Below are positions 25,701-28,700 of a DNA stretch of 64,000 bases, one piece after another (position 1 is the stretch's first letter; the number at the start of each line of letters is the position of its first letter). Below the pieces are notes generated by a model that saw only the letters and a program-made list of their open reading frames with translations, was not told the DNA's origin and did not search any database. The DNA is from Imbricaverruca yamaguchii (Eukaryota > Arthropoda > Thecostraca > Neoverrucidae), in assembly GCA_034440575.1 (NCBI GenBank), contig JAOTOL010001342.1, forward strand, positions 1 through 64,000, read 5' to 3'. A program made the position numbers and the translations under genes.

Positions 25701-28700
25701 TACCGTGCTTTTCAGCGGCGAATGCCTCGGGCGCTGGAACAGCTGCAGCAGCTCAAACGCTTTGCGTTTCTCGACCTGGTGAAGCGCGCCGGACTGCAGC
25801 GGCTGCTCGTGGCCAACGTGACGCTGTTCGTGCCGACCGACGCGGCCGTCGCCGACTTCGTGACCCGACACCCGGTAACCGGCCTCGTCGTCGGCCTCGT
25901 CGTGACGTCACCGGCCGGCTGGCCGGCGGCCAGCTGTGCGTCGGCAGTGGTGTGGAAACTGGAGCGAGTGACCGGGTGGAGCTTGTGTAGCGTGTTGTGA
26001 GCTAGGTGCTCACACCGGTCGGCATGACCGTGGAGATACTGGCGGTCGCCGGCGGCTTCGTTGTGGCCGTTTTGCTTCGACATCGCCCTCCCAACAGCCA
26101 CCACCCACCACACCGATGCCTAAACGCGTTATGTTGTGCGTCGGCATTGCTCGCTTCATCACCGCTCGTTGCTTGCATTGACAAGAGCGGTCGAGACCGA
26201 GGCATTCAGAATGTGATGATATAACTTCGTCGGCCGTTACATCTGAATATGTCGGCCATTTCAGACGGTTCAAGACCGTGAAAACTTGGCTCGCTTCGTC
26301 GGAGCTCACGTTGTGGACGACAACCTGCCACTGCCCCTCCTGGCGTTGCGCGTAAGTGTGTTCTGATTTCATATCGGAGTATTCGGAGACAAGTCATGCT
26401 TGCAGGCGGGGGGTTGTCCAGCCCACCACCAAGTGGTGATGTCGGCTATTTCTGGAGTGTAAGCTGCGCGCTGCGTTGATGTGCTGCTGTAGGCTGGAGA
26501 TGTGTTACGTGCGAAGATAGCGTGTGTTTGTCGACAGGTGGTGATGTGAAGAGCATAGCAGGTTTCGTAGGAGGGGTGGTGATAGGCAGATCTCGGGGAG
26601 TGATAAGCAATGCCTGACACGATGTCTGTAGACATTGATGACGAAATGCCTCGTACGCCTCTACTGCGTTGACTGATATCACCCTGATAGAATCCTGTTC
26701 TGCAGACTTCCATACAGAGCCAGCACATATCCGGTCTGGCCCGGTGTGGGTGTCGCTCACCACTGTCCCACCTCTACAGAGTCCCGTACAGAGCCGGTCT
26801 GGCCCGGTGTGGGTGTCGCTCACCACTGTCCCTCCTCTACAGAGTCCCGTACATACCTAGTCTGGTCCGGTGTGGGTGTCGCTCACTACTGTCCCTCCTC
26901 TACAGAGCCCCGTACAGAGCCGGTCTGGTCCGGTGTGGGTGTCGCTCATCACTGTCCCTCCTCTACAGAGTCCCGTACAGGGCCGGTCTGGTCCGGTGTA
27001 GGTGTCGCTCACTACTGTTCCACCTCTGCAGAGCCCCGTACAGAGCCGGTCTGGTCCGGTGTGGGTGTCGCTCACTGTCCCTCCTCTACAGAGTCCCGTA
27101 CATACCTAGTCTGGTCCGGTGTGGGTGTCGCTCACCACTGCCCCACCTCTACAGAGTCCCGTACAGAGCCGATCAGGTCCAGTGTGGGTGTCTCTCACCA
27201 CTGCCCCACCTCTACAGAGTCCCGTACAGAGCCGATCTGGTCCGGTGTGGGTGTCGCTCACCACTGTCCCACCTCTGCAGAGTCCCGTGCAGCTGGTCCG
27301 GTGTGGGTGTCTCTCACTGTCCCTCCTCTGCAGAGCCCCGTACAGAGCCGGTCTGGTCCGGTGTGGGTGTCGCTCACTGTCCCTCCTCTACAGAGTCCCG
27401 TACAGAGCCGGTCTGGCCCGGTGTGGGTGTCGCTCACTACTGTCCCCCCTCTACAGAGTCCCGTACAGGGCCGGTCTGGTCCGGTGTGGGTGTCGCTCAC
27501 CACTGCCCCTCCTCTACAGAGTCCCGTACAGAGCCGGTCTGGCCCGGTGTGGGTGTCGCTCACCACTGTCCCTCCTCTGCAGAGTCCCGTACAGACCCGG
27601 TCTGGTCCGGTGTGGGTGTCGCTCACTGTCCCACCTCTACAGAGTCCCGTACAGGGCCGGTCTGGTCCGGTGTGGGTGTCGCTCACCACTGTCCCTCCTC
27701 TACAGAGTCCCGTACAGAGCCGGTCTGGTCCGGTGTGGGTGTCGCTCACTGTCCCTCCTCTACAGAGTCCCGTACAGAGCCGGTCTGGCCCGGTGTGGGT
27801 GTCGCTCACTACTGTCCCACCTCTACAGAGTCCCGTACAGAGCCGGTCTGGTCCGGTGTGGGTGTCGCTCACCACTGCCCCTCCTCTACAGAGTCCCGTA
27901 CAGAGCCGGTCTGGTCCAGTGTGGGTGTCACTCACCACTGCCCCACCTCTACAGAGTCCCGTACAGAGCCGGTCTGGTCCGGTGTGGATGTCGCTCATGC
28001 TGGGTCTGCTCCGGTCTGCTCCGGTGTGGGTGTCGCTCATTACTGTCCCACCTCTACAGAGTCCCGTACAGAGCCGATCTGGTCCGGTGTGGGTGTCGCT
28101 CACCACTGCCCCACCTCTACAGAGTCCCGTACAGAGCCGATCAGGTCCAGTGTGGGTGTCGCTCACCACTGTCCGACCTCTACAGAGTCCCGTACAGAGC
28201 CGGTCTGGTCCGGTCTGGTCCGGTGTGGGTGTCGCTCACTACTGTCCCTCCTCTACAGAGACCCGTACAGAGCCGATCTGGTCCGGTGTGGGTGTCGCTC
28301 ATTACTGCCCCACCTCTACAGAGTCCCGTACAGAGCCGATCAGGTCCAGTGTGGGTGTCTCTCACCACTGCCCCACCTCTACAGAGTCCCGTACAGAGCC
28401 GATCAGGTCCAGTGTGGGTGACGCTCGGGCCGCGCGGCATGCTGGTGAACTGCGTGCCGCTGCTTAGCCGGGACCGACCTACACCCAGCGGAGGCGTCAT
28501 CCACACCATCGACGGCGTGCTGCGCTCCGAGGGCCGCACAACGTTGCAGGCGATCAGGGCGCGCCCTCAGCTCTCCACTCTCTACACTCGTGAGTGCTGC
28601 CCAGAGGCGGATCCAGAAGGACCGGTGAGGGGGGATTTCGAAGAATATTCCCCGACTTGGAAATCTCTTCAGATATGAACAGCTGACATTTGTCGGGTCT

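Follow-up and report, generated by a model that had tools for sequence, protein, structure and literature searches.

Tandem repeats that carry splice sites, or lie across exon borders, have been described in human genes. In ABCA7, canonical splicing persists alongside a variable number tandem repeat (VNTR) that includes a splice donor, and one isoform retains a single unit (PMC5954066); at other human exon-intron boundaries, repeat units may be kept in the mRNA or spliced out of it (PMC2812944). Here we describe an array in which a 3' splice site is copied together with the start of the exon behind it, in a fasciclin-domain (FAS1) gene of Imbricaverruca yamaguchii. The window that we analysed, 64,000 bases in all, comprises bases 1-64000 of a 705,210-bp contig (C1109; JAOTOL010001342.1) from a genome of 767 Mb. 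We consider it probable that the array is an ordinary unstable minisatellite lying across a splice junction, of whose acceptors the one adjacent to the exon is probably used most while the others act as leaky competitors, and that it is a tolerated splicing load and no evolved device.

A minisatellite that multiplies a 3' splice site

The four modelled exons of the host gene (+ strand; Table 1) join into a single open frame with GT/AG borders, and the spliced model scores 80.1 bits against Pfam Fasciclin (cut-off 22, E 2e-22), with TGFBI and periostin as its closest solved structures in the PDB. The host is thus a FAS1 gene of the cell-adhesion type; among 385 candidates from a protein collection, no homologue reached E 0.001. 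Tandem Repeats Finder (TRF) reports 27.7 copies of a 63-bp unit at 26713-28426, a span that overlaps the exon start at 28385, so that the array directly abuts the exon, and the consensus unit, placed head to tail, contains CTCTACAG, so that the splice site is carried in the repeat unit. When units are defined by cutting at CT[AG]CAGA, the array yields 26 acceptors, whose first exon-side bases run from 26706 to 28322, and the exon's own at 28385 brings the total to 27. The 26 units measure 63 bp (18 units) or 60 bp (4 units), apart from single units of 53, 73, 74 and 105 bp, the last of which (27955) is an incomplete double without its middle acceptor. A regular unit consists of about 42 bp like the exon start at 28385 and then a 21-bp (or 18-bp) intron tail ending in CT[AG]CAG: across the 22 regular units the first 42 bases match the exon start at 37.5 of 42 positions on average (range 34-41), and over the last 18 bases the agreement with the exon body drops to 5.2 positions, about chance. 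The first 36 bases of the exon are present exactly in units 28322, 28123 and 27155. Sequence differs among 24 of the 26 units, and near-identical ones (0 or 1 change) sit 186 to 1,167 bases apart, neighbours being no more alike than distant units, as expected of an array whose units exchange. An earlier note on this DNA, which had proposed an array copying an acceptor and the start of the next exon right up to the true FAS1 exon, is confirmed in this by the TRF call, the unit cuts and the open splice model. The short unit and the small duplication that it put at 55 bp and 10-11 bp exist, at 53 bp and 10 bp.

The density of acceptors in the array is far beyond chance. Defining a strong acceptor-like site as a YAG with at least 12 pyrimidines of 16, we count 15.5 per kb in the array, while outside it the two strands of the window give 1.12 and 1.35 per kb. 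A CTCAY with its A at -18 or -21 accompanies 26 of the 27 acceptors (the leftmost has CTGAT at -19), and in 26 of the 27 a tract of 12-14 pyrimidines in 16 leads into CAG; the tracts of the two other acceptors in the splice model are poorer, with 8 and 9 pyrimidines of 16. Because each regular copy brings along a whole 3' splice site (CTCAY, pyrimidine tract and CAG), the pre-mRNA would present 27 near-equal acceptors. CTCAC itself spans the seam of the copied exon (CGCTC) and the copied intron (ACC) and, because of that position, seems to have been created by the duplication. No GTRAG donor occurs on the + strand in 26706-28384, which holds only 26 weaker GTRNGT matches, so the units are unlikely to work as separate exons. 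Copies each with an acceptor and a donor of their own, the mark of duplicated or mutually exclusive exons, are therefore absent, and the spacing of 53-105 nucleotides, with a separate CTCAY for 26 of 27 sites, differs from that of short tandem acceptors, which lie a few nucleotides apart and share a branch site. A stable RNA structure that would hide or present the acceptors was rejected for 28196-28430, a stretch that folds worse than its shuffles (z +1.79). Within the window no known RNA family reached its gathering score, and inverted repeats between the array and its flanks come to one weak pair (72%; 27981-28016 with 28472-28507), another pair lying outside the array. We note that on the minus strand of 26706-28384 the CTCAC of the unit reads GTGAG, giving an antisense array of donor-like GTGAGCGAC.

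The exon is the most likely source of the copies. Searching the genome itself at the protein level, we found a paralogue (C1359:504279-504494) with 54% identity over query residues 82-155, and a match to the upstream exon as well (C1359:497530-497676, E 0.005). The paralogue's PVETGSGPLWL aligns with the copied exon start of the gene, PVETGSGPLWLSVGARG being part of the paralogue alignment, and it is because the copied stretch is shared with the paralogue as FAS1 coding sequence that copying from exon to array appears the most likely direction. That the unit is a dispersed repeat was rejected, since in the sequence compared the one match outside the array is 19 bases long, at 42677. A search for a unit remnant in the intron left of the array gave nothing significant (336 of 500 shuffles score equally well). 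Nor was an allelic second copy found, either by protein search, where 11 of 11 candidates were scored and gave only this gene and the 54% paralogue, or with bases 28430-30230 as a DNA query, for which the 40 candidates scored, of 3903, gave the query's own place and a dispersed repeat at its end, leaving room for a second copy at the DNA level. Bases 30057-30230 belong to a dispersed repeat that occurs at least 40 more times in the genome, with identities of 87-92%, and a retroelement lies downstream of the last modelled exon, where an RVT_1 reverse transcriptase domain is divided between two frames (31926-32599).

Table 1. Exons, intron, array units and splice features of the FAS1 gene (positions in the window; a slash marks an exon border)
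Feature	Position	Strand	Details
Upstream FAS1 exon	25695..25874	+	5' border not determined; ends CCG/GTAACC, phase 0; open frame CIYRAFQ...VTRHP; Pfam FAS1 in spliced model
FAS1 exon, 87 bp	26265..26351	+	Donor CGC/GTAAGT, phase 0
Intron, 2033 bp if the exon-adjacent acceptor is used	26352..28384	+	1679 bp of the intron are array (26706-28384)
Leftmost and most diverged unit, 74 bp (+11 relative to regular)	26706..26779	+	Acceptor CTGTTCTGCAG, weak pyrimidine tract (9/16)
Six units, acceptors in phase but meeting a stop	26780..27154	+	TAG at 26858, 26999 or 27107
Units 27155, 27218 and 27281 (the last 53 bp, -10)	27155..27333	+	In phase, stop-free to exon end; 410, 389 and 368 added residues, mostly in shifted unit frame
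Fourteen units, acceptors out of phase	27334..28258	+	End at TAG 28465; include 105-bp unit 27955 and 73-bp (+10) unit 28186
Last two units, acceptors 28259 and 28322	28259..28384	+	In phase, open; add 42 or 21 residues
Exon-adjacent acceptor	28360..28384	+	Branch-like CTCAC with A 21 nucleotides upstream; 13/16 pyrimidines; CTACAG
FAS1 exon, 205 bp	28385..28589	+	Donor CTC/GTGAGT; array copies its first 42 bp; homologous exon in the C1359 paralogue
TAG reached by 14 of 27 acceptor choices	28465..28467	+	122 nucleotides before exon end
Next exon, start of the following FAS1 domain	29099..29219	+	17.2 bits alone, under the Pfam cut-off of 22

Reading frames, domain fit and codon phase

Six of the 27 acceptors are in phase 0 and open to the end of the exon: 28385, which adds nothing, 28322 (+21 residues), 28259 (+42), 27281 (+368), 27218 (+389) and 27155 (+410). 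Another six (26780-27092) are in phase and meet a TAG inside the array, and the remaining 15 are out of phase, 14 of them ending at TAG 28465 and the leftmost (26706) at TGA 28419, so that a premature stop follows from 21 of the 27 choices. A stop more than about 50-55 nucleotides before a junction leads to decay of the mRNA. The acceptors at 27155, 27218 and 27281 return to phase because the 53-bp (-10) and 73-bp (+10) units cancel; the last three acceptors are phase 0 and stop-free, as the earlier note had said, whereas its further claim that all units before them are out of frame fails for these three, which are open, and for the six that are in phase. The fit of the domain to Pfam FAS1 is best without an insert (51.1 bits), and falls to 46.3 bits with 21 added residues and 44.8 with 42, to 43.9 without the first 12 codons of the exon and to 45.8 without the first four. 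The exon sequence of the paralogue, which we examined, has no 21-residue repeat.

The changes among units carry a weak signal of codon phase. In a hand alignment we counted each column-and-base change once and took as expectation the same kinds of change placed at random, leaving out unit 26706 in the main test and using only the first 42 bases of unit 27955; the test was devised after the data had been seen. Read in exon phase, 13 of 24 changes are synonymous against 7.8 expected (P 0.02), and 15 of the 24 fall on third positions against 8.7 expected (P 0.008), with no excess in the other two frames. Restricting the count to the 22 regular units leaves 12 of 22 synonymous (P 0.03), and 9 of 17 once CpG sites are removed (P 0.04). 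Taken apart, neither the exon-like part (7 of 13, P 0.06) nor the intron-like part (5 of 8, P 0.15) is significant. No significant column bias emerged from a cruder alignment spanning the whole array (P 0.147 for the most frequent codon column), and two other junction arrays of the genome showed no codon-phase bias. The signal could reflect past or present translation of the units, or repeated seeding of the array from a constrained exon, and we treat it as a lead only.

Minisatellites at other exon ends and across the genome

Arrays at exon ends recur in the FAS1 genes of this genome, where we find five more on three other contigs (C1359, C1362 and C1375). In the C1359 paralogue the same exon has a 43 bp x 3.9 array over its acceptor (L051:169-337), which contains the acceptor whether this is placed at L051:320, 324 or 327, and a 44 bp x 2.8 array at its donor (L051:514-631); the intronic copies of the latter have lost the GTGAG. 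The boundary minisatellites thus differ between the paralogues, with units of 63 bp here and of 43 and 44 bp there. A common origin of the two acceptor arrays was rejected because the 43-bp and 63-bp units are unrelated (unit similarity P 0.77), and the homologous acceptor end was therefore probably struck twice, independently. On C1362, a 33-bp array with 11 acceptors of the CACCTCCACAG type (L015:1140-1507; C1362:98639-99006) stands directly against a FAS1-like exon (L015:1508-1617), and a second array there, 77-bp x 2.7, overlies the 5' part of a further exon (L015:2453-2655). The C1375 array, in a gene on the minus strand, has an 18-bp unit and abuts the donor end of a FAS1 exon (L008:1-1512; C1375:973044-974555); it runs to the edge of the stretch examined, so that its count of at least 85 units is a lower bound. 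Within that stretch it holds 66 exact CAG/GTGAG donors, and its first units are in frame as VSRHSQ repeats.

The earlier note implied that such an array is a rarity, and this is not borne out: minisatellites abound in the genome as sampled, and the frequency of arrays at other FAS1 exon ends is about that of the background. The background comes from 200 kb, the sequence of 20 of 40 places drawn at random on ten large contigs and falling on five of them. We find 42 arrays with 5 copies or more, which cover 18,699 of the 200,000 bases (9.3%), and the probability that a 60-bp stretch taken at random touches an array of 2.5 or more copies is 0.134. Among the 16 ends of eight FAS1 domain hits (a small sample, from 8 of 12 hits), two have an array within 60 bp outwards; against the 13.4% background, a preference of minisatellites for junctions is unsupported, and in so small a sample exon ends are not visibly spared by arrays. 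Nor are acceptor-like units in excess, with 4 among 71 random arrays against 5.5 expected from shuffles, and donor-like units occur in 3 of the 71 against 0.9 expected (P 0.08). In the 40 arrays of the window and the FAS1 loci, acceptor-like units occur in 2 against 2.1 expected and donor-like units in 3 against 0.5 (P 0.02), two of those three being the same C1375 array counted twice; neither the 33-bp nor the 43-bp unit passed the cut-off used in these unit counts (12 of 16 pyrimidines). Of the window's 64,000 bp, 7,976 lie in arrays with a unit of 10-120 bp and 5 copies or more. Further dense minisatellites lie at 3702-5473, 11178-12025, 15256-15947, 43310-43878 and 46477-47141, and a 72-bp x 9.9 array at 13893-14605, its units 97% alike, has an acceptor-like CTCTCACCATACAG in the unit and no neighbouring exon that could be assigned.

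The simplest reading of these observations is of a genome full of minisatellites, some of which land on splice junctions and multiply the splice sites there. More tentatively, and with more doubt than confidence, we raise the possibility that minisatellites fall on splice junctions as freely as elsewhere, so that something like one in eight exon ends may be within an array or next to one, some of these arrays offering dozens of near-identical acceptors or donors, such as the 27 acceptors here, 12 at C1362 and 66 donors at C1375, and that across thousands of genes the spliceosome either picks the exon-adjacent copy or tolerates length variants. If arrays do sit freely on junctions genome-wide, the genome would amount to a natural large-scale experiment in the choice among near-identical splice sites.

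Competing explanations and known systems

The probable history of the array, as an ordinary minisatellite, begins with a tandem duplication of a segment over the intron-exon border, 21 bp of intron tail plus about 42 bp of exon, which would then have grown to about 26 copies via unequal exchange or slippage. Acceptor 28385 would give most of the productive mRNA, a role we assign to it because the best-fitting FAS1 domain arises without an insert, and the acceptors one and two units upstream may give occasional forms with 21 or 42 added residues. Most other choices would bring premature stops and nonsense-mediated decay, for which reason we take the array to be mainly a load that the splicing machinery tolerates; it is probably polymorphic in length. 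The earlier note had offered three possible functions: an acceptor decoy array, variation in protein length, and a splicing burden. In favour of our account stands ABCA7, where a donor-containing VNTR leaves room for canonical splicing (PMC5954066). Several points weigh against it. The excess of synonymous changes in exon phase is unexpected for a purely intronic array. When human tandem sites are almost equally strong, it is the upstream member that is used more (PMC8055015), which speaks against dominance of the exon-adjacent copy. For 66% of the intron modifications in human boundary-repeat genes there is also a transcript retaining the repeat (PMC2812944), which favours inclusion of units. 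Longer VNTRs in ABCA7 are accompanied by increased skipping of the exon downstream (PMC5954066), an outcome that lies outside the model and could occur here.

If the upstream acceptors were used and their products translated, splicing and copy number together would set the length of a FAS1 loop (+0, +21, +42 and rarely +368 to +410 residues), and the array would be a device for acceptor choice. We think this unlikely, even though six of the 27 acceptors are in phase 0 and open, 22 of the 26 units have the regular lengths of 60 or 63 bp, which like 105 bp, the length of one further unit, are multiples of 3, and human boundary repeats are often kept in some transcripts (PMC2812944). The synonymous bias, which persists without CpG (9/17, P 0.04) and in three separate sub-blocks that share ancestry, points the same way, but it is small and post hoc, and is missing in the cruder alignment and in two other junction arrays. 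Inserts, moreover, lower the FAS1 fit, 21 of the 26 array acceptors give premature stops, and in humans selection disfavours tandem acceptors where the protein is structured (PMC2279118). The same weak phase bias would fit a coding repeat that grew within the exon behind an ancestral acceptor at 26706, most copies being removed from the mRNA when a cryptic unit acceptor later came into use. This path was described by De Grassi and Ciccarelli for human boundary minisatellites (PMC2812944), and the left-end acceptor is as strong as the gene's others (9/16 pyrimidines, CTGAT at -19); yet the paralogue exon lacks the 21-residue repeat, and the +21 and +42 forms fit FAS1 worse, so that such an origin seems to us rather improbable. 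That regulated use of upstream acceptors might send mRNA to nonsense-mediated decay and so tune the gene is suggested by the premature stop met in 21 of 27 choices, for 14 of them 122 nucleotides before the exon end. Most random junction arrays would give the same stops, however, and the paralogue has an unrelated 43-bp array in that place (P 0.77), and we regard a switch of this sort as very unlikely. Lastly, tandem arrays are hard to assemble and no second allele was found for comparison, which raises the question of whether the length of the array, or its place beside the exon, is an assembly error. With 24 of 26 units distinct in sequence, exons of the gene flanking the array on both sides and comparable junction arrays on three other contigs, we find this hardly credible.

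We note that the choice of the spliceosome among equal sites (the first reached, the one nearest the exon, or by exon definition) has usually been studied with few competitors. An intron with 27 near-identical acceptors, and another FAS1 gene with at least 66 near-identical donors, many of them in the same frame, should make the rule of choice directly readable, and copy-number alleles would supply a dose response for splice-site choice. The locus also indicates that growth of a minisatellite can rewrite gene structure within a folded domain. Among the listed matches in the open-licence literature on splicing and repeats we found no acceptor array as large as this one, nor did the available excerpts of PMC2891723, PMC2586383, PMC7536079, PMC12195476 and PMC12783039 contain a closer precedent.

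The array resembles known systems in part and departs from each of them. In the model of introns from tandem arrays that goes under the name of Zhuo et al. 2007, tandem duplication of a segment with both splice sites reportedly creates competing introns; the array here has no GTRAG donor, so only acceptors multiply. As in the intron 18 VNTR of ABCA7, a minisatellite abuts an exon and its unit carries a splice site, but there it is a donor that is copied, in a 25-bp unit starting with GT, and here an acceptor together with 42 bp of exon; for ABCA7, length polymorphism and effects on RNA have been measured, skipping of the next exon among them (PMC5954066), whereas the array here is known from the DNA of one assembly. 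It is like the human internal tandem repeats at exon-intron boundaries (De Grassi and Ciccarelli 2009; PMC2812944) in that boundary minisatellites occur in paralogous genes; those average 30-bp units x 4 (160 bp), against 63 bp x 26 (1.7 kb) here, known from DNA alone. With NAGNAG and other tandem alternative sites (PMC8055015, PMC2279118) it shares the competition of acceptors of one intron and a protein that changes by whole residues, and it differs from NAGNAG acceptors in its spacing, mostly of 60-63 nucleotides, in the branch-like site, tract and AG of each copy, and in having 27 sites. Splice-site VNTRs, as in ABCA7, and boundary minisatellites in human paralogues are thus already known; what is new here is the number of near-equal sites, their position on the acceptor side, and the recurrence of such arrays within one gene family.

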